NCBI RefSeq assembly: GCF_900166635.1
Contig: NZ_LT800497.1
Coordinates: 3,830,344-3,894,343 of the forward strand
DNA: 64,000 nt
From: Oceanobacillus timonensis
GTDB taxonomy: Bacteria; Bacillota; Bacilli; Bacillales; Amphibacillaceae
Direction of reading: 5' to 3'
The notes under the pieces are model-generated. The model was not told where the DNA came from. It saw only the letters and a program-made list of their open reading frames with translations, and searched no databases. Each line of letters opens with the position of its first letter. The first letter of the stretch is position 1. A program made the position numbers and the translations under genes. Positions 49,753 through 64,000 of this stretch are shown in pieces.

Positions 49753-50508
49753 ATGATGAAAGCACAACGAGTAAATGCGATATTGGAATACGTAAAAGAA
49801 AAAGAATCTGTATCGCTTGATGAACTAGTTGAGCGATTTAATGTATCCAAAAATACAATTCGCCGCGATATTCAAGAACTAGTTGATAATGATAAAATGG
49901 TAAAGGTCTACGGCGGAGTATCTATTTCTCAGCCTTTAACCGTTCCTTATCAAGATAGGAAAGTCAAGCAATTCCATGAAAAACAGAAGCTTGCAAAATT
50001 AGCAGCGGAATATATTGAGGATGGAGATATTATTTTTATTGATTCAGGAACCACTACAGTAGAGCTGCTAGACTTTATCAAGTATAAAAATGTTACCATC
50101 GTCACCAATAATCTGGATTTTACGTTAGATGCCAGTGCTTATCCGAATTTAAATATTTATTCAACTGGTGGTGTTTTCGAACGTTCTACCAGATCTTATG
50201 TCGGCACAGAGAGCGCAGAAGTTATTCAAAAATATAACTTTAATAAAGCTTTTATGGCTTCAACAGGTATCTCACTGGATAAAGGGATAACCAATTCCTC
50301 TCCATTGGAAACACAAGTAAAAGCAAAAGTGATTAGAAAAAGTGAACAAGTGTTTATTCTCGTCGATCATACAAAATTCGATAAGTATGCATTGACAACC
50401 TACTGTGATTTTGATGACATTGATTATTTGATAACGGATCAAGAACCTCCGCAAGCGTATATCACACATAGTAAACAGAACCAATATGAAGTGGTTTTTC
50501 CAAAGTAA
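49753..50508 (+). CDS. DeoR family transcriptional regulator
   Basis: 251 residues. The N-terminal helix-turn-helix is SVSLDELVERFNVSKNTIRRDI (about 18-39). The DeoR sensor domain follows, with DGDIIFIDSGTTTVELLDFI (about 94-113, phosphosugar-binding loop) and the later STGISLDKGITNSSPLETQVK. DeoR proteins sense phosphorylated sugars and usually repress PTS or kinase genes. It precedes PTS IIB and IIA genes and faces the Gfo/Idh pair, so either may be its target. Start: AAGGGGGCGCTTATTT before the ATG. Confidence 0.9.
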   Translation: MMKAQRVNAILEYVKEKESVSLDELVERFNVSKNTIRRDIQELVDNDKMVKVYGGVSISQPLTVPYQDRKVKQFHEKQKLAKLAAEYIEDGDIIFIDSGTTTVELLDFIKYKNVTIVTNNLDFTLDASAYPNLNIYSTGGVFERSTRSYVGTESAEVIQKYNFNKAFMASTGISLDKGITNSSPLETQVKAKVIRKSEQVFILVDHTKFDKYALTTYCDFDDIDYLITDQEPPQAYITHSKQNQYEVVFPK

Positions 50509-50688
50509 TTTTAAAAGAATGCGCATCAAATGATTTTATGCAGAAGATTTGCATTTTTAGGGTAAACTCTTTAATATAAGGTAAAGCTTCGCACTGTGAA
50601 AAAGTGCACAAACATCAAGAAGTTTCTTTTTTATATTTTCAATTGCATGAAGCAGTGTAACAAATATAACAAAAAAAGAGGTGTAAGG

Positions 50689-50985
50689 ATGGAAAAAGTG
50701 ATTGTAGTATGTGAAGCAGGAATAACAACAAGTTTATTAGTAAAAAAATTAAATGATCTAGCCCAAGAAAAAGAACAAGATATCGATATTCAATCGAAAA
50801 GTCTGGAAGAAGGATTGGATTACATTAAAGAACATGATATAGATGTTGTATTATTGGGACCACAAATTCACCGCAGTGCTGAGAAATATGAAGCATCAAC
50901 GAATGCAAAAGTCGCTAAAATTTCGGTAAAAGATTATAACGCCATGAATGTTTACAGTATTTTTGAACAAATAAGCGAGGCGTAA
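50689..50985 (+). CDS. PTS lactose/cellobiose family IIB component
   Basis: 98 residues starting MEKVIVVCEAGITTSLLVKK, with AAAAGAGGTGTAAGG before the ATG; a longer upstream frame is not credible. The conserved early cysteine (C8 in VVCEAGITTSLLV) is the phosphorylation site, and DVVLLGPQI matches the family. IIB passes phosphate from IIA to the incoming sugar on IIC. The IIA gene follows three bases later, but no IIC gene exists here. It is therefore an orphan pair that must use a IIC encoded elsewhere, or act in regulation. Confidence 0.85.
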   Translation: MEKVIVVCEAGITTSLLVKKLNDLAQEKEQDIDIQSKSLEEGLDYIKEHDIDVVLLGPQIHRSAEKYEASTNAKVAKISVKDYNAMNVYSIFEQISEA

Positions 50986-50988
50986 ATA

Positions 50989-51297
50989 ATGGCAATCGAT
51001 GTAGAAGTATTTATGCCTTTGATTACAGAAGCTTCTCAAGCCAAAACGTTAGCCTATCAGGCATTAGGTCTTGCAAAAGCACAAGATGTGCACGGTTATG
51101 AAGCAGGAATAGCTGATGCTAAAAAGCACTTGATAACTGCTCATAAAAAACAGACAGAGCTTTTGCAATTAAACAGTCGTGAACAGCAAACAGATATTAA
51201 TATTTATGTCATCCATGCGATGGATCATGTGACAAACGCTCAAATGATTTGTGATATGGCGCAAGAGTTAGCGGAACTTCATTTGAAAAATAAATAG
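50989..51297 (+). CDS. PTS lactose/cellobiose family IIA component
   Basis: 102 residues with the IIA(Lac/Cel) layout: ITEASQAKTLAYQALGLAK (about 9-27), AHKKQTELLQLNS (about 48-60), and IYVIHAMDHVTNAQMICDMAQELAE-type ending, where the histidine in VIHAMDHV (about 77) is the phosphorylation site. It receives phosphate from HPr and hands it to IIB. Three bases separate it from the IIB gene. Its last 13 codons and terminator are duplicated at 60105-60206. No IIC gene follows; the next 500 bases are a transposase relic. Confidence 0.88.
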   Translation: MAIDVEVFMPLITEASQAKTLAYQALGLAKAQDVHGYEAGIADAKKHLITAHKKQTELLQLNSREQQTDINIYVIHAMDHVTNAQMICDMAQELAELHLKNK

Positions 51298-51309
51298 TAG
51301 AAAAAATCT

Positions 51310-51344
51310 CCTGTAATCGGTGTATACCTATTGCAGGATTTTTT
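51310..51344 (+). terminator. Terminator after the PTS genes
   Basis: The stem cctgtaat (51310-51317) pairs with attgcagg (51330-51337) including a G-U pair, followed by six T. A near-identical copy is at 60171-60206. Confidence 0.75.
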
Positions 51345-51369
51345 ATAAAAAGACTTATAGCAAATCGAA

Positions 51370-51850
51370 CAATACTAATATTAATCACTCAATTTTCACA
51401 CGCTGGAATAAACATGTACCCCTTGATATAGTTAGATAGACTAGCCACTCGTTGCTGTACTTGATTTTTGATTAATTTTAAGACTACTTTATCGGTAAAT
51501 TGAATCGTATTATCTGAAAATTTGATTAACTACTACAAAGTATCAACCTAATCAAGTTCATCTATTTCTTAAAATAATCCATCCAACGTTCAATTACCCA
51601 TGTGACAACGATTTTGACCAAAAAAGCACGGTATATTTTGTGAATATAATCGTGATAGGCTGATAAAGGTATCATAAAAATGGTTTTGAACTCTATTTGT
51701 AGACTTAAAAGTGATTTAATTGTCTTTAAAAAGACTTCAATATCCAGCCCTTCTCATAGATATAAATAATTTCTTCATTGCTAAGCATGAAATTTGAAAA
51801 CGGGTTTTAGGTTTAATTCTTTATTTCCACTTTTGAATCGCATAGCGGGT
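51370..51850 (-). pseudogene. Relic of an IS4-type transposase
   Basis: On the minus strand, after allowing for frameshifts, one reads NEEIIYIYEKGW, then IEVFLKTIKSLLSL, then SAYHDYIHKIYRAFLVKIVV and IERWMDYFKK, and near the end VQQRVASLSNYIKGYMFIP. The W-(D)-IEVFFK-KS run followed by YD..YISAH/RY is typical of IS4-superfamily DDE transposases around the last catalytic glutamate. Stops and single-base losses are frequent, and no N-terminal part or inverted repeats were found, so this is an old remnant. It lies where a PTS IIC gene might have been. Confidence 0.5.
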
Positions 51851-51896
51851 GGTTTATATTTTGCTAAATAAAGGCTCAATTATCTAAAGTCATAAT

Positions 51897-51928
51897 AAAA
51901 AAGCAACGGATTTTTTCCGCTGCTTTTT
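51897..51928 (-). terminator. Terminator downstream of the second porter gene
   Basis: aaaaaagcaacgg (51897-51909) pairs with ccgctgcttttt (51917-51928) with one bulge. On the minus strand T residues follow. It is about 210 bases past the 52138 stop. Confidence 0.55.
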
Positions 51929-52137
51929 GTTACAGAAATATTATTTTGTATATTCCAATAATTTCAATTTTACGAATCATGGCTTTATCACATTCATTCT
52001 TCTCCTCGGTGACTTCGCGAATTTGAGCATTCCATCCTCTCTTCGTTTTCTGTAAAATTAATGATTGTTTTTTTATATAGTTCTATCCATCATGTTCACA
52101 GAACCAATGCCCTGAAATTTTTGGTGAAAATTAAAAC

Positions 52138-53577
52138 TCATTTTATATTTTGAAAACGTTGATTCTCAACTGGACGTTTACTCCATATTTCTTCTATCTC
52201 CTCCAATTTTTTACCTTTTGTTTCAGGCAAAAATTTCCATATAAAGAAGACAGACAATACACATAATCCGCCGTAAATTGTGAAAGAAGCCGGGCCGAAT
52301 GCATCGTTTAACATAGGAAACATGGATGATGCAGCTAAATTTGCTATCCAATGCAATACTGACGCAAGCGCAACTGCTTTTCCTCGAATTTTATTAGGAA
52401 AGACCTCTGAGACAACAATCCATGTGACTACCCCCCATGTTAACTGGAAACAAGCGACGTATAATAAGATGCTAACCAAGGTAATAATTCCAAAAACATT
52501 CATAGAACCAAGTATTGCAACCAAAAATAAACTAATGGCGCAACCAATTGATCCAACCATAAGTAATGGTTTTCTACCTAGGCTATCAACAAATTTCAGT
52601 GCAAGTGTCATGAAAATTACGTTGACAATCCCAACGATTACTGTCTGGAACATAGAAGCAATCTGTCCTACTCCCATACTTTCAAAAATACGAGGAGCAT
52701 AGTACATGATTACATTAATTCCTATTAGTGGCTGAAAAATATGAACAGCGACACCGACAAATATAACTAATCCCCCGTATGAAAACAGACGTGCCTTTTG
52801 TGATGTTTTATTAAATATTGTTTTTTTAATCTCTGAAATGATCTGGCTAGCCCTTTCCTTCGAATTGTGCACTCTTTCAAGAATTGAACTTGCTTTTTGA
52901 ATTTCGTTGTTAAAAACGAGATACCTAGGAGTCTCAGGTACAAAGAAAAGCAAGGATAAAAATAATAAAGCAGGTATCATTTCAGAAGCAAACATATATC
53001 TCCAGCCAATATCACTTACCCAAGCAGTCGTTTGAGCAGAAGCAATCAGCAAATTTACAGTATATACAGACAGTTGACCAATTCCAATAGATATTGTATA
53101 CACAGCTACATACTTCCCGCGACTTTGCTCAGGTGAAATTTCACTGATATACATAGGTGCAATCGCAGCACCAATTCCAATCCCAATCCCTCCAATAATG
53201 CGGTAAGTATTGAAAGCAATTAAAAGAGAAAATGATGCATCCCCTTTTGTAAAAAAGAACATTTCAGGATATGCACTGCCAAGTGCCGAAAAAAAGAATA
53301 AGAATCCTGCCAGAATGAGCGTTTTTTTACGTCCTAATTTATTGGCTAGTAATCCTGAAATAAGTCCGCCTATGATACAACCTATATGTGCACTAGAAAC
53401 AGTGAACCCATGGGCAAATGACCCCAATCCAATACTGTTAATTAAATACTTTTGTACATGCTGCTCCGCTCCTGAAATAACAGCAGTATCATACCCAAAC
53501 AACAGACCAGCTAAGCCAACGGTCATTACAATCGCAAGCAGATATCGATTATTTTCATTCGCTTGAACATATTGCAT
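52138..53577 (-). CDS. MFS sugar porter (IolT/CsbC-like), second copy
   Basis: 479 residues with twelve helices, parallel to the 45814 porter throughout: LLFGYDTAVISGAEQHVQKY (about 20-39), NKLGRKKTLILAG, FVPETPRYLVFN, INVIMYYAPRIFESMGVGQ, and KFLPETKGKKLEEIEEIW at the C-terminus. It is clearly a paralogue, not a recent duplicate, as substitutions are scattered. Start: GGAGGGAAAAGT before the ATG. A cre-like site lies 24 bases upstream. Likely uptake of a monosaccharide or inositol-type substrate for the neighbouring flavoprotein enzymes. Confidence 0.88.
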   Translation of the reverse strand: MQYVQANENNRYLLAIVMTVGLAGLLFGYDTAVISGAEQHVQKYLINSIGLGSFAHGFTVSSAHIGCIIGGLISGLLANKLGRKKTLILAGFLFFFSALGSAYPEMFFFTKGDASFSLLIAFNTYRIIGGIGIGIGAAIAPMYISEISPEQSRGKYVAVYTISIGIGQLSVYTVNLLIASAQTTAWVSDIGWRYMFASEMIPALLFLSLLFFVPETPRYLVFNNEIQKASSILERVHNSKERASQIISEIKKTIFNKTSQKARLFSYGGLVIFVGVAVHIFQPLIGINVIMYYAPRIFESMGVGQIASMFQTVIVGIVNVIFMTLALKFVDSLGRKPLLMVGSIGCAISLFLVAILGSMNVFGIITLVSILLYVACFQLTWGVVTWIVVSEVFPNKIRGKAVALASVLHWIANLAASSMFPMLNDAFGPASFTIYGGLCVLSVFFIWKFLPETKGKKLEEIEEIWSKRPVENQRFQNIK

Positions 53578-53600
53578 ACTTTTCCCTCCTATTTAAACAT

Positions 53601-53614
53601 ATGAAGCGCTTACA
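53601..53614 (-). promoter_or_regulatory. Cre-like site upstream of the second porter
   Basis: On the porter strand TGTAAGCGCTTCAT fits the catabolite response element except for one missing base in the right arm, the same deviation as at the lutP site. It is 24 bases before the start codon. Confidence 0.45.
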
Positions 53615-53873
53615 TTTATCGAATAAAATTTTTAATATAGTGCCATCAAGAAATATATATAAGATAAATAAGGTATGGCTCAGAATTCCTTTAAATATCC
53701 AATGCTAAGGTGTATTTTTAAGCGTAATGTGAATCTCATCATAATCCATAAATCATCCTAATTCTCGTTTGATCTATCTGTCTTTATAGTCTATGAGCAG
53801 AAGACAGAATCTGGCTTTTTTCGACATGAGGGTGGAAAACGACTTCATGGTTCACTACAAAGCACTTTAATCC

Positions 53874-54072
53874 TCATAATTCCTGCTTGATAAATGCTTT
53901 GGGAATCCTCCATTTCGCAATATAGTCGAAATAATAGACATATGTCTCACTCTTTGTCTCCAAAATATAATGGATTTTGTTCCTTGTATTTCATATTTTT
54001 AAGGTAGCTTTTAAACAGGTGGTATACCATTCCAATTCTAGATTTCAGTAAATAATCAGGGATTCGCACCAT
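53874..54072 (-). pseudogene. Broken coding fragment of unknown family
   Basis: On the minus strand a frame from 54072 reads MVRIPDYLLKSRIGMVYHLF and continues to YFGDKE, then hits a stop at 53947-53949. A one-base shift there continues as ETYVYYFDYIAKWRIPKAFI to KQEL and a stop at 53874. The two halves join into a plausible 66-residue protein end. No ribosome binding site, so the 5' end is probably missing. I do not recognise the family. It lies directly after the FAD oxidoreductase gene on the same strand. Confidence 0.4.
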
Positions 54073-54092
54073 TAATTTCAAGCGTCTTTTGA

Positions 54093-55436
54093 TTAAATTA
54101 TGATTGAACCACCTTGTGCCAGAACCTTTCGTAACTTTGATATCTCCATATTTTGCACTGATCTATTAGAATGAAGTGCGAGATAAGCCGCAACTCCTGC
54201 GGCTTCACCAGTCTGATTCATGTTCACCATCACTCGGACCCCGGCGTAGGCATTATAATCCACATCCAGTATTCTACCTGCAACTAACACATTGGGATAT
54301 TTCTCTGGAACAAGTGAACGGTATGGTATTTGATAATAAGTTGGTTCTTTTTCTAATGGACCACGCCAATGGCTGACTTCTACCGGATAACCCGGGCGTG
54401 TGTATACTTCCTCTCCATTTAAATAACGATAAGTAATGCCTGGTTTATTATCATGGTGGATATCGATACGATAGCTGCCATTCGCTATTGCGTCATCAAA
54501 TTGTTTACCATATAATACATCATTTTCATTTAACTGATACTTACACTGTACATGACGAGTTTCTCGTATTCCTATATTCGAAGGGAGAGAAGCCAAAGAA
54601 ATACTTTGATTTGAACAATATTTTCGAATAAGGTCCATATATGCCCTTACTTGACGTCGACCTTCTATTTCACTATTCGTTAGAGAACGCCCATCTACAC
54701 AATTTGCATTATAAACCCTTGTTCCGGAAAGCATATAAAGATCCTTTGCTCCTGGTATATATTCACCCCAGTTAGAACCCTCGGGAAAACCAAATTCTTT
54801 TCCATGCTTTAAAAACAATTCATTTATATCCACCCCATCTATAGAAGACCACCCATTTATTTTGGCGTTAGTGGTGGGTGGTTGTTTATGTTCTGATTCT
54901 TTATACGGGATCTCCAGGTCGTGACACAAATCGCCATCACCTGTCGCATCTATGAACATAGAAGCGAGTATAACCCCTCTCCCAGATTTATTTTCAACGA
55001 TTACGCCTTTCAGCATATCCTGCTCCATATAGGGTCCGACGTAAAATGTATGCAAAAAAGGGCCCACATTCTCTTCTTTCACCATCTCATCCAATTCAAT
55101 TTTGAGTTCCTCCGTATTTAAAACAAATCCAGAGTTATAGTTCTTTTTAACAGTGCGAACTGCATTTCTTCTCTTCAAACGTTCAACTGTTTCTTGCGTG
55201 AGTCCAGCTATGATTTGTTTATCAAATGTTGTATTATACACGCTATGCCAAATATTCACCAAAGCTGAAGTGGCCACACCACCAAATGAATTTTGTTTTT
55301 CTACAATAATAACTTTTGCCCCAAGCCGAGCAGCACGTATGGCTGCAAAAACCCCCGTACAGCCTCCTCCAAGAATACATATATCTGCTTCTGCAAAAAC
55401 AGGGGTTTGCTTAGCTGGTTCTGTTATTTCCTTCAT
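54093..55436 (-). CDS. FAD-dependent oxidoreductase (FAD_oxidored family)
   Basis: 447 residues. The FAD-binding Rossmann motif is ADICILGGGCTGVFAAIRAA (about 16-35), followed by KVIIVEKQNSFGGVATSALV (about 40-59), where the GG-(V)A-(T) run after the ribose-binding E is typical of PF12831. FIDATGDGDLCHDL (about 161-174) is the second family signature, and VLVAGRILDVDYNAYAGVRVM (about 395-415) the C-terminal cofactor contact. Members are linked to carbohydrate degradation; reactions are mostly unknown. Weak ribosome binding site (GGGAATGG). No signal peptide: cytosolic. A second, larger member is at 55968. Confidence 0.85.
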   Translation of the reverse strand: MKEITEPAKQTPVFAEADICILGGGCTGVFAAIRAARLGAKVIIVEKQNSFGGVATSALVNIWHSVYNTTFDKQIIAGLTQETVERLKRRNAVRTVKKNYNSGFVLNTEELKIELDEMVKEENVGPFLHTFYVGPYMEQDMLKGVIVENKSGRGVILASMFIDATGDGDLCHDLEIPYKESEHKQPPTTNAKINGWSSIDGVDINELFLKHGKEFGFPEGSNWGEYIPGAKDLYMLSGTRVYNANCVDGRSLTNSEIEGRRQVRAYMDLIRKYCSNQSISLASLPSNIGIRETRHVQCKYQLNENDVLYGKQFDDAIANGSYRIDIHHDNKPGITYRYLNGEEVYTRPGYPVEVSHWRGPLEKEPTYYQIPYRSLVPEKYPNVLVAGRILDVDYNAYAGVRVMVNMNQTGEAAGVAAYLALHSNRSVQNMEISKLRKVLAQGGSIII

Positions 55437-55967
55437 TAAAACACCATTCCCATTTTTAAAAATTTTTCTTTTTATAAAATTTTATATTTTTTACAAATTT
55501 AAACTAATTCTTTTTGCTTCTTTCCTCACATCTTCTTGAATGTTAGTGCTCCAATCTGTGCGATTAAGAATATGTTATTTCTAATTTTGTATTTGGCAAT
55601 TTTAGAAATATTTTACCCCTTAAGAAACTCTTACTTATGAAATCACTTAAATAGAATTACATTAATGACGTCAGTACTATCTCAGACGAACTCTCCAAAT
55701 CTGTATTCATTTAATGTGCTGTCTCAGGTAAACATTTGGCTTACGGTCTCCCTTCAGCTAAAATTTATCAAGATACCAGGAGAATCTTCACCATGAAACA
55801 ATCCTATTGCATTTTGGAGGACATATATTAGTCATCTCAGGATATCCTCCACTTCCTATGAAAAAAGAAGTAACCAGATTCTGATTTGTCATTCAGGGAG
55901 TCCACTGGCCCCCCTGAATGTATTGCCTTCATACCAATCTATCTAAATAGTTACGTTATTACTAGGG
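55437..55967. other. Gap between the two flavoprotein genes
   Basis: About 530 bases with no supported gene. A hairpin (cattcaggg at 55890 with cccctgaatg to 55920) lies 48 bases past the 55968 stop and may act as a weak terminator on the minus strand. A 23-codon minus-strand open stretch near 55500-55570 ending in a stop could be another eroded gene end, but cannot be assigned. Confidence 0.45.
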
Positions 55968-58295
55968 TTAGTAACATCTAATTTCATAGACTGCTGCAGA
56001 AGGATCTCCATTAGTTGCATGAATGGTTAGTCTTAGACGATCGGTGCTAACTGTTTGATTTAATTGATGTTTGCGTTGACGTTGATAGTTATCAGTCACT
56101 CGTAATACTTCTCTCCACTCTCCATCAACCCAAAGACTTATACTGTAGTCTTTGGCACATTGCGAATCACGATAAAACGACTCGTAGGAGTGATACTCAC
56201 GCAAGATGTTACCAGGAAATGTGATTTCAATTTGTGAAATAGCTTCTATATTGTCCCATGATAATTCAATCCAAGGTGCCTCAGGGGCTTTTTCATCTGA
56301 ACGCCATAAATTTGTGGAACGATATGGTCTTGTATAGCCGCTAAGCACATTTTTTGCTTCGTAACAGTTTTGCTCTGGTTCAACTTTATAACTCATAGTA
56401 ATTCCATGATCATATCTTCTCATCCGTTCGCCAATATCAAAGGAACATACTTGACCAGGTTCAATTTTACCTGCCCTATGCCATTCCACATTTTCATTTT
56501 CAAATAAATCTAGTCGAATATAGCCCTCAACAGGCAAACCATTGGAAGTATTTAGCTGTACATCCCATGAAATCCATTGATTGTTTCCAGGTGGCAACTC
56601 TAACGTTGTTTCAGCTAATTGCGCAACACCGTTTAATGAATAATCCCATATATCCTCTACAGAATATACCTTCGCTTGCAATTTTTCTGTTTCATTTGAA
56701 TGATTTGTCAAACATACGGATATAGTGTCAACTTTATCATTACCAGTCGCTATCCATTGACCTCTACGTTTTTTTAAACGATCAGATTCTTCACCTTGGT
56801 GTTGTGTCTTCCAAAACCTTAGTCCTTCGTGAACCCCCTGTGTATTAGGACCGACGCCAACACTAGTTGCTTCACTACTTGCCGTTACTTTTGCTTTTCT
56901 AGCTAAATCATTTTCATCCTCATTTTTTGTATTTAATAAAAAGCAACCATCCCTAAGAAGTTGTTGTTTGACTATATCAATATGGTTGTCAGCTACTTTA
57001 GGTGGATGTACACCGAGTTTAACGGATTGTGCTGCTGCAGTACCGACTCCTTGACCCATGATGGCTGTAGTACCCATCACCCTAACAGTTCCTAGCGCTG
57101 CATGTGTGGCACTTACGTTTCGACCAGCCATCATTAAATTGTTTACATCCTTTGATATCATCATGTTTAAAGGAATCCCATATGGTCCACAAAGTGTTTT
57201 TCTTTGGAACTTAGTATCTACTTTATATCCTTCCATCGCACCTGGTTCACTTGAAGGTGCTAATAATCCACCTGGAGTGTGTAAATCAACATTCCAGCCA
57301 CCAAACGCAACTTCGTCTTCAAATACTTTTTTATTAAGGGGATCATGTTCTGTCATTAAATATCTCCCCATGATTCTTCGGCTCTCTCTTTTACCAGGTA
57401 CCTGACCAATCCATTCCAGTGCATAATTTTTAGCTACTTCTTTTAATTCAGGATCTTTATTTTTAATCCAGTCCCAAACACCCAGCGTGTGTCTGGTTAA
57501 CTCATGTCGAATATCTTCATTTTCATAAATAGTATCCCATGGTACACCAATTTCCAACCACCAATATCCAGCACGATACCGGTCATTTTCCTTATGACCA
57601 GTATGTTCTAAAGGTCTTCCTTGATTATAGAAGAAACTAGCATCTTCATAATGTTTAATCCAGTCAGGAGCTTTAAATGGGACAGGTTTTCCCATATCCA
57701 CTGCCTTAAAATGGAGAGAGCTTCCTAGTACATTTTTACTCGCTTGTTCAGGTGCATGTGGTTCATTAAACTCCTCACGAGCTTCTTCTCCTAATCTCCA
57801 TTCACATCCAGCTCTGTCAGCCACAATGCCGTCACCTGTGCAATCAATAAATACCTTCCCCTTAAGAGTTAGCTCGACCTCGGCATTAAGGATATGACAG
57901 ACAACACTATCTATTGTACGGTCATCTTTTTTATTTACGCCTTGAACTGTTGTATTTAAAAAGAATTCTAAATTAGGTGTACTCATTGCCATATCATAAA
58001 TAGTCATATCCCACACACTATTGGTCCAGCCATTTTCGTTTATCTCCTCATGGTTTCGAGCTCTTTCTTCTATTAATAGTTCAGAAATTACTCCCGTTTC
58101 TCTTGCGTAATAATGAAAGGCAGCGGAACCATGTGTTGTCACTCTAATCTCTGAAGAACTGTTCCCTCCAAAAACAGGACGATCTTGAACAATCACTGTA
58201 TTTGCACCATTTCTTGCTGAAGAAATAGCAGCGCAAATACCAGCTAAACCTCCACCACATACAACTACATCAAACGTTTTAGTTTCCGATTTCAA
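55968..58295 (-). CDS. Large FAD-dependent oxidoreductase with C-terminal beta domains
   Basis: About 775 residues. The FAD_oxidored part (1-450) has FDVVVCGGGLAGICAAISSA (about 7-26), VFGGNSSSEIRVTTHG, FIDCTGDGIVADRAGCEW (about 150-167) and LMMAGRNVSATHAALGTVRV (about 390-409). After residue 460 come beta-rich regions. The last 150 residues look like a galactose-binding/discoidin-type domain (LWRSDEKAPEAPWIELSW, ISQIEITFPGN, RLRLTIHATNGDPSAAVYEI). No signal peptide is present. I choose the TTG eight bases after AGAGGGG; a GTG three codons earlier is possible. It probably oxidises a carbohydrate. It follows a LacI gene and an ABC permease stub on the same strand. Confidence 0.82.
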   Translation of the reverse strand: MKSETKTFDVVVCGGGLAGICAAISSARNGANTVIVQDRPVFGGNSSSEIRVTTHGSAAFHYYARETGVISELLIEERARNHEEINENGWTNSVWDMTIYDMAMSTPNLEFFLNTTVQGVNKKDDRTIDSVVCHILNAEVELTLKGKVFIDCTGDGIVADRAGCEWRLGEEAREEFNEPHAPEQASKNVLGSSLHFKAVDMGKPVPFKAPDWIKHYEDASFFYNQGRPLEHTGHKENDRYRAGYWWLEIGVPWDTIYENEDIRHELTRHTLGVWDWIKNKDPELKEVAKNYALEWIGQVPGKRESRRIMGRYLMTEHDPLNKKVFEDEVAFGGWNVDLHTPGGLLAPSSEPGAMEGYKVDTKFQRKTLCGPYGIPLNMMISKDVNNLMMAGRNVSATHAALGTVRVMGTTAIMGQGVGTAAAQSVKLGVHPPKVADNHIDIVKQQLLRDGCFLLNTKNEDENDLARKAKVTASSEATSVGVGPNTQGVHEGLRFWKTQHQGEESDRLKKRRGQWIATGNDKVDTISVCLTNHSNETEKLQAKVYSVEDIWDYSLNGVAQLAETTLELPPGNNQWISWDVQLNTSNGLPVEGYIRLDLFENENVEWHRAGKIEPGQVCSFDIGERMRRYDHGITMSYKVEPEQNCYEAKNVLSGYTRPYRSTNLWRSDEKAPEAPWIELSWDNIEAISQIEITFPGNILREYHSYESFYRDSQCAKDYSISLWVDGEWREVLRVTDNYQRQRKHQLNQTVSTDRLRLTIHATNGDPSAAVYEIRCY

Positions 58296-58335
58296 ATCAA
58301 ACACCCCTCTACATAAATTAAAATTGTGTTTTTTA

Positions 58336-58446
58336 TTATCCTTTTATTGGACAAATTGCTAACTCTTTTCTAAAGTACTTTTGAATAATAAGGAATAATA
58401 CGAAAATAATAAATACTGCATTAATAGATGCGTTGATTGCTTCCAT
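58336..58446 (-). pseudogene. C-terminal stub of a sugar ABC transporter permease
   Basis: 36 codons reading MEAINASINAVFIIFVLFLIIQKYFRKELAICPIKG and stop (shown here by position; key features are a hydrophobic helix, then QKYFRKEL and terminal KG). CUT1 permeases of the MalG/LplC type end with a helix followed by FQKYF-x-KGL-x-AGAVKG. The rest of the gene, its partner permease and the binding protein are absent. It begins five bases after the LacI stop, so a deletion joined regulator to permease end. No ribosome binding site. Confidence 0.6.
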
Positions 58447-58450
58447 AAAA

Positions 58451-59464
58451 TCATTTTTGGTTTTTACCACTTGAGTTTCTGACAATTAGTTGAGTATCTA
58501 ACTTAACTTCCTTTTTATTAATAGTTTCAGATGATAACATATCCAGTAACATTTCTGCGGCTTGTTTCCCCATTTCTTTTCTCGGCAAATCGACCGTTGT
58601 TAAATTAATAATGTGCAGCCTTGAAATCTCTAAGTTCTCAAAACCGATAACAGATATGTCATTTGGAACGATATAGTTTTTTTTCTTTAACCAATCCAAA
58701 GCGCCAATAGCTAAAAGATCATTTGCAGCGAAAACTGCTGTAATATTCGGATTTTTTTCCAGGAGAGTTTTCATACCATATCTACCATCCAAGATTTTGG
58801 AACCAGGAATGGTAATATTTTGGTCTAAAAGGTCGATATTATAATGTTTCAAACAATCTAAATATCCTTCAAACCTATCTTCCTCTTCCCTTGATTCTTT
58901 CGTCATTCCTATAAATCCAATATTGGTATGACCTAATTTGATAAGGTATTCAACTGCGTTATATGTTGCTTGATAATGGTTTACGTCAATGGAAGATATA
59001 TTAAGCTCTTGTTCATTTTCACTCAGACTTCTTAAAAAGACGATTGGTATTTTTAATTGGTTGATTGTGTTTAATAATTCCTCATTAAGGTTACTAGGTT
59101 TCATTATAATTCCATCAATTTTTCTTTCTAATAAACTTTTAAGAAAATCTTTTTCTTTTTTTACTTCCAAAAAGGTATTCCCGTAAATTAGTTGATACCC
59201 ACTTTTTGATAAAATTTCTTCAACTCCCAGTGCTACTTCCGAAAAGAAAGGATCTGTAATATCAGATAGCATAAGCCCTACCATATTAGATTTCTTTTGG
59301 ATTAAACTTCGTGCATTAGCGTTAGGTGTGTAGTTAAGCCTTTTCATTTCTTCTAAGACTTTTTGTCTTGTTTCCTTTTTTACGTCTGGTTTATCATTGA
59401 GTGACCTAGATACTGTTGACACGGATAATCCAAGCTCTTTTGCGATATCTTTAATTGTTTTCAT
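58451..59464 (-). CDS. LacI family regulator of the flavoprotein operon
   Basis: 337 residues starting MKTIKDIAKELGLSVSTVSR, with AGGAGGAGGATAA before the ATG. Helix-turn-helix at 3-24, hinge helix LIQKKSNMVGLMLSDIT (about 58-74), effector domain with DPFFSEVALGVEEILSKSGY, TAVFAANDLLAIGALDWL and ISVIGFENLEISRL, and the C-terminal EVKLDTQLIVRNSS. A perfect operator (CGGAAACGTTTCCG) lies 25 bases upstream of the start, so it is autoregulated. Two broken copies of its 5' end lie upstream in tandem. Confidence 0.92.
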   Translation of the reverse strand: MKTIKDIAKELGLSVSTVSRSLNDKPDVKKETRQKVLEEMKRLNYTPNANARSLIQKKSNMVGLMLSDITDPFFSEVALGVEEILSKSGYQLIYGNTFLEVKKEKDFLKSLLERKIDGIIMKPSNLNEELLNTINQLKIPIVFLRSLSENEQELNISSIDVNHYQATYNAVEYLIKLGHTNIGFIGMTKESREEEDRFEGYLDCLKHYNIDLLDQNITIPGSKILDGRYGMKTLLEKNPNITAVFAANDLLAIGALDWLKKKNYIVPNDISVIGFENLEISRLHIINLTTVDLPRKEMGKQAAEMLLDMLSSETINKKEVKLDTQLIVRNSSGKNQK

Positions 59465-59488
59465 TTATCCTCCTCCTTATATATTTTT

Positions 59489-59502
59489 CGGAAACGTTTC
59501 CG
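59489..59502. promoter_or_regulatory. LacI-type operator, copy 1
   Basis: CGGAAACGTTTCCG is a perfect palindrome; the symmetry extends to 24 bases (59484-59507). It sits between the lacI start and its upstream region. LacI-family proteins bind such CG-centred palindromes. Confidence 0.8.
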
Positions 59503-59624
59503 AAAAAAACTATAAGATAAAGATTATCTTTTCAATAATCTTTTATTTTTACTTGAATTATTCACAAAGCATATTTTTTAATAATTTTCAAATCAAATTT
59601 GCTGCCTTTGTTCCACTCACTAGA

Positions 59625-59711
59625 GGTATATTTCACTTATCATTAAGCGATTCTAGATACTATTAATACAGATAATCCAAATTCTTTTGCGGTATCGTTT
59701 ATTATTTTCAT
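59625..59711 (-). pseudogene. Broken second copy of the lacI 5' end
   Basis: From the ATG complement at 59709-59711, the frame reads MKIINDTAKEFGLSVLIVSR, parallel to the intact MKTIKDIAKELGLSVSTVSR. After a one-base shift SLNDK follows, then a stop. A TTTATCCTCC ribosome binding region and operator 2 lie upstream just as in the intact gene. It codes only the DNA-binding helix region. Confidence 0.75.
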
Positions 59712-59735
59712 TTATCCTCCTTCTCATATATCTTT

Positions 59736-59749
59736 CGGAAACGTTTCCG
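59736..59749. promoter_or_regulatory. LacI-type operator, copy 2
   Basis: CGGAAACGTTTCCG, identical to copy 1, 247 bases away. The flanking actataagataaagatta and ttcaataatc sequences are also shared with copy 1. Confidence 0.8.
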
Positions 59750-59904
59750 GAAAAACTATAAGATAAAGATTATTTTTTCAATAATCTCTTTTACTTGAAA
59801 TATTCACAAAGCGTATTTTTTAATAATTTTCAAATCAAATTTAAAAATATAGCAGAAAACTTGCTAATAAATCGTATTTGCTGCTGTTGCCCAACTTCTC
59901 TAGA

Positions 59905-59995
59905 AGGTATATTTCACTTATCATTAAGTAGTCTAGATACTCTTGGCAAAGATAATCAAAGTTCTTTTTGCGATAGATTTTATTATTTTCCTTCC
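59905..59995 (-). pseudogene. Broken third copy of the lacI 5' end
   Basis: More decayed than copy 2. With two frameshifts one reads KIIKSIAK, then KEL-LS, then VSRLLNDK and a stop, matching the intact N-terminus (MKTIKDIAKELGLSVSTVSRSLNDK positions 2-25). The start codon is lost. Confidence 0.65.
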
Positions 59996-60021
59996 CTTTT
60001 CCTCCTTTCAACATCATTTTC

Positions 60022-60033
60022 GGAAACGTTTCC
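60022..60033. promoter_or_regulatory. LacI-type operator, copy 3
   Basis: GGAAACGTTTCC, 285 bases from copy 2 and about 360 bases upstream of the plus-strand Gfo/Idh gene. Outer bases differ from copies 1 and 2 on one side. Confidence 0.75.
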
Positions 60034-60104
60034 AAGAACTATAACATACTAGATTTTATTTTTCAATACTCTTTTATTCACTTAGATCTTTTTGACATAG
60101 ACAT

Positions 60105-60146
60105 ATGGTGCAAGAGTTAGCGGAACTTCATTTAAAGAATAAATAA
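60105..60146 (+). pseudogene. Duplicated C-terminal fragment of PTS IIA
   Basis: Fourteen codons ATG to TAA read MVQELAELHLKNK, against MAQELAELHLKNK at the end of the 50989 gene. The DNA is nearly identical from here through the terminator. No upstream IIA sequence is present. Confidence 0.85.
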
Positions 60147-60170
60147 TAAAATAAATAATAGAAAATACTT

Positions 60171-60206
60171 CCTGTAATTGGTGTAAACCTATTGCAGGAT
60201 TTTTTG
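60171..60206 (+). terminator. Duplicated PTS terminator
   Basis: cctgtaat (60171-60178) with attgcagg and six T, matching the terminator at 51310-51344 with few changes. Confidence 0.7.
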
Positions 60207-60391
60207 TATAAAAAGAAATGAACAGCGAATTTAACCATACAGAAGATATCAATCAAATTCTTTACAAAAGTTAACAATAAATTAATCATAAATTAATAAA
60301 AACTTGACTAAATATTAATTTTTATAATAGTATATAACATAGAAACAAAGATAGTGAACATATCTATAAATTTAACAAAGGAGAATTTTAA

Positions 60392-61411
60392 ATGAAAACG
60401 CTTAAAATTGGTGTTGCAGGTTTAGGTAGACTAGGCCTGATTCATGCAGAAAATATCTATAATCTAAAAGGAGTCGAATTGACAGCGGTTTCTAATTTAG
60501 ATGAGGAAGTAAATAACCAGGTAAAGGAAAAATATAAGGTACCAAATGTTTACACAAATTATGAGGAGATGTTGGAACAGACGGAATTGGATGCTGTTTG
60601 TATCGTTACACCATCCGGATTCCATACAGAGCACATTCGTTTAGCGCTGAAGAAGAACTTGCATATTTTTTGTGAAAAGCCAATTGGTTTAGAAGTAGAA
60701 GATATCAAACAAATGATAGACGAAATTGAGAAGAGTGACAACATTTTTCATTTAGGATTTATGAGAAGATTTGATGATGATTATTTATATGCGAAAGAAA
60801 TGATAGATAGCGGACAAATTGGAGAGATTTCGTTGATTCGTTCCTACAGTATTGACCCAATCCAGGGGTTAGACAGCTTTGTCAACTTTGCTAGGCAGAG
60901 TCCAAGCGGTGGTTTGTTCCTTGATATGAGTGTCCATGATATTGATGTTATCAGGTGGTTGACAAAATCTGAGGTTTCAACTGTTTGGGCAACTGGAACA
61001 AATAAAGCTGCACCGGAATTGGATGAACTGAATGAACTGGAATTAGGCACAGTTACCATGAAATTGGACAATAATGTAACCGCTTTGCTAGTTGCTGGAC
61101 GCACAGCTTCACATGGTTACCACGTAGAAACAGAAATTATCGGAACGAATGGAATGCTAAGAATTGCTGCATCTCCTGAAAAAAATAAAGTAGCTGTATT
61201 TAATGAACATGGGGCAGTACGCCCGTCTTCTCAACATTTTCCTGAACGATTTGCAGGAGCTTATATAAATGAATTGAAAAACTTTGTCCACTGCATTCGT
61301 GAAAATCAACAACCGGAAGTGACTGCTGTTGATGGTTTACGTGGTACCGAAGTAGCGTTAGCATGCCAAGAATCATTTGATGAAAATAAGCTAGTTGATA
61401 TTCAATATTAA
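60392..61411 (+). CDS. Gfo/Idh oxidoreductase, inositol 2-dehydrogenase-like
   Basis: 339 residues. Rossmann GVAGLGRLGLIHAENI (about 7-22), LHIFCEKPIGLEVEDI (about 90-105) with catalytic lysine, FMRRFDDDYLYAKEMI (about 124-139), and SGGLFLDMSVHDIDVIRWL (about 168-186) with catalytic aspartate and histidine. It is IolG-like, parallel to the 47319 protein but clearly diverged. Start: AAAGGAGAATTTTAA before ATG. It precedes a sodium symporter gene by 34 bp, forming a two-gene uptake and oxidation unit. LacI operator 3 lies upstream. Confidence 0.87.
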   Translation: MKTLKIGVAGLGRLGLIHAENIYNLKGVELTAVSNLDEEVNNQVKEKYKVPNVYTNYEEMLEQTELDAVCIVTPSGFHTEHIRLALKKNLHIFCEKPIGLEVEDIKQMIDEIEKSDNIFHLGFMRRFDDDYLYAKEMIDSGQIGEISLIRSYSIDPIQGLDSFVNFARQSPSGGLFLDMSVHDIDVIRWLTKSEVSTVWATGTNKAAPELDELNELELGTVTMKLDNNVTALLVAGRTASHGYHVETEIIGTNGMLRIAASPEKNKVAVFNEHGAVRPSSQHFPERFAGAYINELKNFVHCIRENQQPEVTAVDGLRGTEVALACQESFDENKLVDIQY

Positions 61412-61445
61412 TGATTAAAGCACACAATCTAGGGAGGAGAATACG

Positions 61446-63038
61446 TTGAATTTATTTAGCATTATCAGTTTTGTTATGGTACTGGTGTTAATCTATTTCT
61501 ATGCTTATTATCGTACTAGAAAGATAGATAAAAAAGATTCAGAGGGGTACTTTTTAGGTGGGCGTTCCCTTATTGGAACAACAGTTGGTATGACGATTAT
61601 TATGACTAACCTATCAACAGAGCAACTAGTAGGGCAAAATGGTCAAGCTTATGTAGCTGGCATGGAAGTAATGGCTTGGGAAGTAACTGCTGCCGTTGCA
61701 ATCGTTATGCTAGGTTGGGTTTTTTTGCCTAAATATTTCAAGTATGGTATCAATACTATTTCTGATTTTATTGAAATAAGGTACGATACATTCACTAAAA
61801 GAATTGTATCTATTTTGTTTATATTTACTTACATTGTCAGTTTTATGCCAGTAGTTCTATACTCTGGAGCACTGATTTTTAATGATTTATTTGGAATTGA
61901 GCAATATTTAGGTGTCAGCAGAATAACAGCTGTAATTATCATCTCAACAGTTATTGGTTTAGTTGGTGTAACCTATTTGTTTGTTGGAGGACTCTCACTT
62001 ATTGCTCATAGTGATTCGCTATACGGTATTGGTTTACTTCTTGGCGGATTGACAATTACAGTGTTAGGTTTGATTGCACTCGGAGAGAATAGCTTTTTCG
62101 CTGGTTTGGATAACTTTTTAACAAGTCATCCAGAAAAATTAAATGCTTGGGGGGCACTAGACTCGCAAATTGTACCGTGGCCCACATTATTTTTAGGAAT
62201 GTTATTCAATAACTTGTATTTCTGGTGTACAAACCAAATGATTGTACAAAAAGCTTTAGCTGCAAAAAACTTAAAAGAAGCACAAAAAGGTGCCATGATT
62301 GTTGGGGTCTTTAAAATTTCCGGCATGTTTTTCTTAGTTATTCCAGGAGTTATCGCATACAATATGTTTGGTGATGGTATGCAAATGGACCTTGCTTACC
62401 CTGCATTAGTAGCAGAAGTATTACCTAACTGGGCTTCAGGTCTGTTTGGAGCAGTAGTATTTGGAGCAATTATGAGTTCTTTTGTCGGATCATTAAGTGC
62501 CACCGTTACTTTATTCAGCTTAGACTTTTATAAACCGGTTATCAATAAGCAAGCAACCAACCGTCAAATTGCAAAGGCAGGAAGAGTTTTAACGATTGTC
62601 ATTGGTGCTATTGTTGTTCTTGTTGCACCGTTAATCTCTTTATTCCCGCAAGGATTATATGCAGTTATACAAGAGTTTAATGGATTGTATAGTATGCCGC
62701 TTTTAGCAATTATCCTAGTAGGCTTCTATTCTAAAAAGACCTCAGCTGCTGGTGCGAAAATTACATTAATCTTTCATATTATTGTGTATGCACTGTCTAA
62801 GTTAGTTATTCCAGATGTTCATTATCTATATGTTTGGAGTGTCCTGTTTCTAGTAGATTTAGCTATTCTATATTTCTATAGCCAAAGGAAACCATCTCAG
62901 GAAGATTTCCAATTCGACAAATATCAAAACAAAGTAGATATTACTCCTTGGAAACATGTTAGATGGGTTGGTATTCTAATTCTAGTGGTTGTTGTAACAT
63001 CCTATGTTGTCTTTTCACCACTTGTATTGGCTAGATAA
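61446..63038 (+). CDS. Sodium:solute symporter (SSS family, sugar type)
   Basis: 530 residues with about fourteen helices. SSS signatures: SEGYFLGGRSLIGTTVGMTI (about 34-53), STEQLVGQNGQAYVAGM (about 57-73), LFNNLYFWCTNQMIVQKALA (about 255-274), and ASGLFGAVVFGAIMSSFVGSLSA-type sodium-site helix (about 332-354). It resembles YidK/SGLT-like sugar or inositol symporters. The start is TTG after GGGAGGAGAATACG. Coupled to the dehydrogenase gene upstream. It adds a sodium-driven route beside the two proton-linked porters in this island. Confidence 0.9.
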   Translation: MNLFSIISFVMVLVLIYFYAYYRTRKIDKKDSEGYFLGGRSLIGTTVGMTIIMTNLSTEQLVGQNGQAYVAGMEVMAWEVTAAVAIVMLGWVFLPKYFKYGINTISDFIEIRYDTFTKRIVSILFIFTYIVSFMPVVLYSGALIFNDLFGIEQYLGVSRITAVIIISTVIGLVGVTYLFVGGLSLIAHSDSLYGIGLLLGGLTITVLGLIALGENSFFAGLDNFLTSHPEKLNAWGALDSQIVPWPTLFLGMLFNNLYFWCTNQMIVQKALAAKNLKEAQKGAMIVGVFKISGMFFLVIPGVIAYNMFGDGMQMDLAYPALVAEVLPNWASGLFGAVVFGAIMSSFVGSLSATVTLFSLDFYKPVINKQATNRQIAKAGRVLTIVIGAIVVLVAPLISLFPQGLYAVIQEFNGLYSMPLLAIILVGFYSKKTSAAGAKITLIFHIIVYALSKLVIPDVHYLYVWSVLFLVDLAILYFYSQRKPSQEDFQFDKYQNKVDITPWKHVRWVGILILVVVVTSYVVFSPLVLAR

Positions 63039-63043
63039 ATTAT

Positions 63044-63088
63044 AAAGAAAGCAAATCTCCCTCTTTATTGAGGGCATTTGCTTTCTTT
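63044..63088 (+). terminator. Terminator after the symporter gene
   Basis: A 13-bp stem, aaagaaagcaaat (63044-63056) with atttgctttcttt (63076-63088); an inner ccctc/gaggg adds to it. T-rich tail follows. Confidence 0.85.
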
Positions 63089-63109
63089 TATATTTTGCTT
63101 ATTTTTTAT

Positions 63110-63256
63110 CTACAACTCTGATTTTTTATCAGACTTTTTCTCAACCCAAATATTCTCTAACTCTTCCAACGTCTTTCCTTTTGTCTCCGGTACAAACTTC
63201 CAGATAAAGAATACGGCAACCACGCTGAGCACTCCATAAATCGTAAAAGTCATTCC
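63110..63256 (-). pseudogene. C-terminal relic of a third MFS sugar porter
   Basis: About 48 codons on the minus strand read GMTFTIYGVLSVVAVFFIWK, then FVPETKGKTLEELENIWVEK and a short basic tail to a stop at 63110-63112. This matches the ends of the 45814 and 52138 porters. The rest of the gene is missing at the left of an AraC fragment beginning within 40 bases. Confidence 0.85.
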
Positions 63257-63292
63257 GTTAAGTTATCTTCTTTATATAGCTCATTAAAAGTC

Positions 63293-64000
63293 ATGGACAT
63301 ACAGCTAGATTTAGTCGAAGAAGGATGGACTTTCGATTGGCATGAACATCCTTATTTTGAATTTATCTACTGCAAATCTGGTCATCTGCAGCAATGGATT
63401 GATGATCAATCATACGAATTAACTGGAGGCAGTTCTATCCTCGTTTGCGCATATAAAAAACATAAAACTATCGCACTGGAATCATCGGAGTATTTATGTT
63501 TTCATTTCGATATTGATATATTTGGCATTTATTCGTTATTTAACCAAGTTAAAAATCCATTAATTGAAAAAGACCAAGCCATAGATGATCATCCTTTTTT
63601 ACTAATTGGTTAAACAAGTTAATCATTGATTTCCATATCAAAAGTCAAAAAAAATCGAATCATTTAAGTCAGGACGCTTATATTGAAGGGATGAATTCCG
63701 GCATTCAAATTTTGCATCTACATGCCAGAATATTGGAATGTATTAGTCTATTGGCCTCTTATTTCGAGAAGAGCGAAGGAATTCAAGTCGCCAAGTTAAC
63801 TCCATCTGAAATTGATTTAGCAACAAAAGCATTAAAATATTTAGATGAACATTTCTTGAGACCGATTCGAATGGAAGAATTAGCGCAGCATATGAATTTT
63901 CACCGATCATATATCAGTACCATCTTTAAAAAAGCTTATGGTCTATCACCAACAGAATATCTCACAAAAGTGAGGGTGCGAGAGGCAAGTAAAATGTTGA
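63293..64000 (+). pseudogene. AraC family regulator, frameshifted and incomplete
   Basis: The first frame (63293-63613) codes a cupin-like sensor: EEGWTFDWHEHPYFEFIYCK, then GGSSILVCAYKKHKTIAL. It ends just after a run of six T at 63595-63600. One added T would continue into NKLIIDFHIKSQKKSNHLSQ, then LHARILECISLLASYF and the helix-turn-helix MEELAQHMNFHRSYISTIFK and LSPTEYLTKVRVREASKML, which runs off the window. The ATG lacks a ribosome binding site and the frame is open upstream, so the 5' end is probably also lost at the junction with the porter relic. It may be a sequencing error, phase-variable tract or true pseudogene. Confidence 0.7.

Follow-up and report, generated by a model that had tools for sequence, protein, structure and literature searches.

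We have analysed a locus at which the gene for a LacI-family repressor is preceded by partial tandem copies of its own control region and start. The locus lies within the window, by which we mean the whole 64-kb stretch of DNA under study, and comprises the following features:

51254-51372, plus strand: left direct repeat, in which the 3' end of the PTS IIA gene (50989-51297, intact) is followed by a stem-loop
51374-60102: 8.7-kb insertion holding an MFS transporter, two FAD oxidoreductases, lacI and the three repeat units; absent from the genus mates G018, G008 and G023
55968-58304, minus strand: FAD-dependent oxidoreductase of 778 aa, the presumed target gene (PF12831, E 9.4e-87; 78% identical ortholog near the LacI ortholog in genome G290)
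58342-58437, minus strand: C-terminal remnant of an ABC permease of the sugar type, lying between the genes for LacI and the FAD oxidoreductase (15/32 identities with the G290 permease, E 4e-6 in a single comparison)
58451-59464, minus strand: intact gene of a lacI-family repressor, 337 aa (PF00356 HTH, E 2.5e-16; PF13377, E 4.9e-34)
59391-59637, minus strand: repeat unit 1, with lacI codons 1-25, RBS, putative operator 1 and upstream sequence (direct repeats at a spacing of 247, alignments)
59458-59605: tract of low divergence between units 1 and 2, a candidate gene-conversion tract (8 mismatches in its 143 columns, 24 in the 98 columns outside it; p 0.019 by permutation)
59490-59501: putative operator 1, exact palindrome at the centre of a 24-bp perfect palindrome (inverted repeat)
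59624-59647: junction of units 1 and 2; all 24 nt recur at 59905-59928
59638-59917, minus strand: repeat unit 2, with a decayed lacI 5' piece, start codon and RBS, a frameshift, putative operator 2 and upstream sequence (repeats, alignments, protein comparison)
59737-59748: putative operator 2 (exact palindrome scan)
59905-59928: junction of units 2 and 3, with the same 24 nt as at 59624-59647
59918-60080, minus strand: repeat unit 3, with the most decayed lacI 5' piece, its start codon lost, putative operator 3 and a promoter-like site (repeats, alignments, protein comparison)
60022-60033: putative operator 3 (exact palindrome scan)
60038-60066, minus strand: promoter-like site TTGAAA-17-TATAGT, its second hexamer preceded by TG, lying 4 bp upstream of operator 3 (consensus match only)
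60103-60222, plus strand: right direct repeat, a remnant of the PTS IIA 3' end with its stem-loop

The product of the intact gene is a member of the LacI/GalR family, as its helix-turn-helix (HTH) domain (PF00356) and its periplasmic-binding-like domain (PF13377) both score above the curated cut-offs; in the profile search, no model reached an equivalog cut-off. Read on the minus strand, every unit shows the same order of AT-rich upstream DNA, promoter-like hexamers, operator, RBS and lacI start. Units 1 and 2 are linked by repeats of 103 nt at 86%, 54 nt at 96% and 40 nt at 95%, and units 1 and 3 by a repeat of 51 nt at 80%. Similarity between the units therefore extends well beyond the 12-bp palindrome and includes relics of the LacI N-terminus, which in the two extra units are 70% alike over 20 aa and 71% alike over 17 aa with a stop (with the N-terminal 80 residues of LacI as query, E 9e-6 and 0.001; with the whole protein, 1.9e-4 and 0.012). 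Unit 2 has kept its start codon and RBS and is frameshifted after codon 20, with a stop at codon 23; unit 3 is also frameshifted and has lost the start codon. In both units the lacI homology stops after codon 25, and a whole-protein search of 59465-60391 found nothing of LacI residues 26-337 better than E 0.99. The repeat length is 247 from unit 1 to unit 2 and about 280 from unit 2 to unit 3, a difference accounted for by a 37-nt gap in unit 1 relative to unit 2, smaller gaps being present on both sides. The upstream homology of unit 3 runs out at about 60080. The first-pass annotation had described palindromes that are each accompanied by an RBS region and a lacI HTH start, an intact gene (58451-59464, minus strand) arising from copy 1 only, and a stepwise decay of copies 2 and 3. 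All of this is borne out by the comparisons, and so is the view of the array as the remains of a LacI 5' end whose operators have survived. Its estimate of the first 25-30 codons per copy is right in that the HTH start is recognisable, but the upper figure is too long for the two extra copies.

The exact palindrome GGAAACGTTTCC was found at the three positions that had been claimed, 59490, 59737 and 60022, by a pattern scan of the 64-kb window (n=3). Five further matches in the window carry two mismatches each, and the resulting eight matches at up to two mismatches were reached in 0 of 100 shuffles. In the whole genome (4,485,339 bases in three contigs), exact GGAAACGTTTCC is confined to these three sites. 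When one mismatch is allowed, the genome holds 13 sites, the three exact ones included, against 15 for a reversed control pattern; as one-mismatch sites are no commoner than this control, only the exact sites can be given meaning. The generalised pattern GGNAACGTTNCC occurs three times in the window against an expectation of 0.02.

We consider that this palindrome is very probably the operator of LacI, because GGNAACGTTNCC goes together with the recognition helix of the protein. In 33 sampled LacI loci, made up of our own, 29 among the genus matches listed and those of G290, G771 and G258, GGNAACGTTNCC was searched in the 700 nt upstream of each locus (230 nt for L013). It was present upstream of all loci with the recognition-helix motif SVSTVSR (6/6) and upstream of none with other helices (0/27). 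The nearest site lies at -28 to -65 in the six SVSTVSR loci, our own being at -37 of lacI. GGNAACGTTNCC was generalised after most of the six loci had been seen, with G258 added last and fitting the pattern, and the six loci are related, so that this result is an association and not six independent tests. According to a published study of the LacI/GalR family (PMC2978694), local regulation has been used for operator finding, and a central CG is conserved in the operators. The palindrome at our locus likewise has a central CG and is associated with the recognition helix. LacI would accordingly be predicted to bind at all three palindromes.

Several GGNAACGTTNCC sites are also present upstream of lacI in G290 (-40, -167 and -179, with no HTH relic there) and in G258 (-51, -63 and -570), so that the window is not alone in having multiple sites ahead of a lacI of this type. 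The operators of G290 are tandem adjoining palindromes with a period of about 12 bp, arranged in two groups 139 bp apart (L107 11944-11971 and 11809-11832). In G258, an operator-like GGTAACGTTTCC lies 570 bp from lacI within the start of a divergent open frame (L115 925-936). Short upstream DNA repeats of 13-30 nt were seen in 6/31 other LacI loci (G258 left out); those of G290 are its operators, and none of the repeats extends into a coding piece.

The edges of the units record how the array arose. A 24-nt sequence, AGGTATATTTCACTTATCATTAAG, spans the left edges of units 2 and 3, and no other copy was found in the window at up to three mismatches. In its left half, AGGTATATTTCACTTATCATTAAG consists of the far upstream end of the unit next to it, which makes it the joint of a tandem duplication; the array as a whole consists of homologous units placed head to tail with a common junction, as expected of a tandem segmental duplication. 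In the coding part, the three pairs of units are about equally alike (80-82%): copy 2 agrees with copy 1 at 61/74 columns and with copy 3 at 59/74, and the remaining pair at 59/74. In the leader and promoter, unit 3 is 0.60-0.68 alike to the other units. A simple unequal crossing-over, in which copy 2 would be a chimera of copy 3 and copy 1, was considered and rejected; it fits the control region but not the coding part. Since the coding part of copy 2 is no nearer to copy 3 than to copy 1, crossing-over explains the data less well than does gene conversion involving copies 1 and 2 or selection acting on the control region. With G290 as outgroup, units 2 and 3 stand together against unit 1 and G290 at three informative columns, unit 3 and G290 stand against units 1 and 2 at four, and unit 1 differs alone from the other three at four; these few columns do not fix the order of events.

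Units 1 and 2 are much closer in the control region, where they agree at 123/131 columns, than in the coding part, with 60/73 (Fisher p 0.014), and the difference is clearer when the coding and far upstream parts are combined (p 0.0005). The simplest reading is an old array whose units 1 and 2 have swapped their control region by gene conversion, with purifying selection on the control region of these units as the alternative. Unit 3 matches unit 1 at 12/12 operator columns, whereas elsewhere in the aligned control region the figure is 48/74 columns (p 0.009, one-sided Fisher test), and the longest invariant run over the three units, of 16 columns, includes the operator (column shuffling p 0.04). 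The operator of unit 2 is indistinguishable from its conserved control-region surroundings. The evidence for selection on the operators is accordingly moderate and comes from unit 3. The first-pass annotation had stated that the operators survive better than the coding parts, especially in copy 2. This holds for operator 3, which outdoes its own non-coding surroundings, while in copy 2 it is the whole control region that was kept. Similarly, its suggestion of selection to keep several operators draws moderate support from copy 3 and none from copy 2. Recent origin or gene conversion could also preserve the sites in the absence of selection.

The promoter-like site of unit 3 sits in the position homologous to those of units 1 and 2. 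The same hexamers recur in units 1 and 2, where they are 15 bp apart and end 6-7 bp short of the operator; the spacer of 17 bp is peculiar to unit 3. These spacer lengths come from direct pattern matches; MAFFT alignments placed the unit 3 promoter a few bases off. A promoter consensus scan gave no clear excess over shuffles (15 found against 11.5 expected, sd 4.0). This arrangement suggests that the outermost unit, unit 3, may hold the working promoter.

The array is part of a cluster that is lineage-specific. In G018, the genes for an iolG-like dehydrogenase and a symporter come after those for a DeoR-type regulator, PTS IIB and PTS IIA; the window has these last three genes at 49753-51297. 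Its nucleotides 50001-51373 and 60103-63257 match G018 at 87%, the matching stretches in G008 and G023 are 83-87% identical (query 50001-64000 of the window), and the iolG-like and symporter proteins are 91-96% identical in all three genomes. The flanking repeats, of about 115 bp, are 81% identical over 114 nt (51254-51353 against 60103-60216) and agree at 91/106 positions in a five-way alignment, in which both repeat copies share at six columns a state unlike that of all three empty sites. The stem-loop in them was seen by eye; its loop of about 12 is beyond the limit of the scanner, and the terminator scan lists none. The segment probably arrived by an insertion that duplicated a long target, as could happen if it integrated by crossover in a shared stretch; that the relatives lost it by excision through such repeats is a formal possibility. 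The insert has a G+C of 0.353, close to the values of its flanks (0.356 and 0.346), and is therefore not marked as foreign by composition. The direct repeat excepted, nothing linked the left insertion flank to the repeat units at better than E 0.1, and two weak matches (E 0.01-0.05) fall within the region upstream of iolG.

At the end of the inserted cluster opposite the permease remnant lies an MFS sugar-type transporter. Long stretches of the insert are devoid of any large gene (51374-52137, 53578-54092 and 55437-55967) and possibly represent decayed genes; the open frames in 51380-52130 are all short. Behind the symporter gene, a 106-aa frame (63293-63613) matches cupin and AraC ligand-binding domains only, and may be a truncated or frameshifted AraC-type regulator.

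Among the 28 genus genomes, our own included, no syntenic lacI was found, and the best other match to the 778-aa FAD oxidoreductase was partial (E 1.4e-11, 31%). The closest genus LacI proteins among the matches listed are 49-50% identical and lie beside other genes. Similar DNA was found in 6/27 other genus genomes as one short match of 26-50 nt each, and the scan of genome contigs gave 10 loci with LacI proteins of at most 36%. At E <= 1e-85, and with our own counted, LacI was found in 2/398 sampled genomes of the class, 1/398 of the phylum and 3/397 of the order; the only proteins besides our own were those of G771 (51%), G258 (48%) and G290 (68%). The FAD protein was found at E <= 1e-40 in 6/397 sampled order genomes (own included), with G290 as the only one above 50% besides our own, and at E <= 1e-150 in 1/24 genomes of the family of G290. 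A plasmid record of Paenibacillus urinalis holds a FAD oxidoreductase homolog of 52%, with no LacI annotated in the stretch shown. G290, which belongs to another family, thus has both proteins, at 68% (LacI) and 78% (FAD oxidoreductase). Between the two genes it carries an intact solute-binding protein and two permeases. As only 32 C-terminal codons of the last permease are recognisable in the window against a whole transporter in G290, the cluster here has probably lost its ABC transporter.

Our preferred reading, to which we give a probability of about 0.75, is that a segment with the control region and start of lacI was copied in tandem within the inserted cluster, that the extra coding pieces decayed, and that the operators are most likely still LacI sites. 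The lacI promoter, operator and RBS together with codons 1-25 would have been duplicated in tandem within the lineage-specific FAD-oxidoreductase/LacI insertion, and recombination between the repeats would have led to an array of three units. The extra coding pieces would be non-functional and decaying. The LacI made from copy 1 could bind all three palindromes and would most likely repress its own operon there, and transcription may begin at the best preserved promoter, in unit 3, and pass through the dead copies. Retention of the three operators by recency, conversion or weak selection is the best account of their survival.

This reading has to be weighed against others. The array could be a neutral relic of tandem duplication and decay, in which operators 2 and 3 persist by chance, recency or gene conversion and have no regulatory role. 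We give this slightly less than an even chance: the tract shared by copies 1 and 2 (59458-59605) covers the full control region, including AT-rich upstream DNA with no evident function, and the permease remnant between lacI and the FAD gene is another case of decay at the locus, but operator 3 is complete (12/12) in a background of 65%, and the lacI genes of G290 and G258 likewise have more than one upstream site. That same conservation of operator 3 (12/12 against 48/74), with the sites at -40 and -167/-179 of the G290 ortholog that lack an HTH relic, would favour selection maintaining three operators for stronger autorepression or for looping between distant operators, which we regard as unlikely, if less so than the alternatives below. 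DNA looping had been proposed in the first-pass annotation, and the case for it is weak. Several operators are indeed present, but their centres are spaced at 247 (O1-O2), 285 (O2-O3) and 532 bp (O1-O3), or 23.5, 27.1 and 50.7 helical turns at 10.5 bp, so that O1-O2 is out of phase. Moreover, the 337-aa LacI matches NF007075, a LacI-type model of 358 positions, only to position 335. The last 23 positions, at the C-terminal end which we take to hold the tetramer-forming tail, are unmatched, and such a tail is therefore unlikely in this protein, judged by its sequence. Looping by a LacI tetramer is accordingly unlikely; looping would need another partner, and in general it is weakly plausible. 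It is also conceivable, and rather improbable in our view, that duplication of the front end served as a route to multi-operator control, with the dead pieces as leader, the unit 3 promoter driving lacI and repression at three sites; the G290 locus would have got there differently.

Two further proposals of the first-pass annotation have fared worse. Operators 2 and 3 lie between the two transcription units and might act on the divergent iolG-symporter unit at 60392, but about 270 bp, in which the remnant PTS stem-loop lies, separate operator 3 from the iolG promoter. In addition, the iolG promoter region (60300-60391) is nearly identical in G018, similar in G023 and inside the matched stretch in G008, and neither GGAAACGTTTCC nor GAAACGTTTC was found in the fetched stretches of these three genomes, which have no LacI insert. 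Because the region is conserved in relatives that lack the insert, the coupling is unsupported and we hold it to be very unlikely; the control of iolG probably predates the insert. The least likely reading is that lacI was replaced several times in succession by incoming lacI genes, with the copies as relics. The cluster is an insertion flanked by direct repeats, and so this place may well have received foreign DNA. Nevertheless, the extra pieces both stop after the same 25 codons, share the 24-nt junction and have coding pieces that are 80-82% alike, and no later lacI pieces were found in 59465-60391 (nothing better than E 0.99 for residues 26-337). We therefore rejected successive replacements in favour of tandem duplication.

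The locus resembles the autoregulated LacI/GalR repressors of Bacilli in its HTH and periplasmic-binding-like domains and in an AACGTT-centred palindrome close to its own gene, as at the five related loci. It differs in having three identical sites in duplicated units with coding remnants; an upstream HTH relic at E <= 0.01 was seen in 0/32 other LacI loci of the 33 sampled (listed genus matches and G290, G771 and G258). The G290 cluster has the same regulator and enzyme and several GGNAACGTTNCC sites upstream of lacI, but its lacI 5' end is unduplicated and its solute-binding protein and two permease genes are intact. Partial tandem gene duplications leave head-to-tail direct repeats with a common junction and a single intact copy, and the present array has all of these; what was copied here, however, is a control region with its operator, so that the relic can stay functional regulatory DNA. 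In the lac system of E. coli, several operators serve one LacI-type repressor by looping. Our locus shares the several operators for one such repressor, whereas here they come from duplication, the spacing of operators 1 and 2 is out of phase and the regulator does not match the model to its end. Narrow term searches of the literature found no description of duplicated LacI 5' ends.

In summary, the array adds a new case to a class of event that is already known. It is mostly an ordinary duplication relic, which may have left a gene with three operators. The locus offers a snapshot of a control region that was copied along with a piece of its regulator gene, with the extra operators remaining. 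Should the extra sites be functional, the locus would show that a single step can give rise to multi-operator repression. If they are idle, the locus is a duplication relic with a seemingly conserved operator, which calls for caution in motif-based prediction of regulons.
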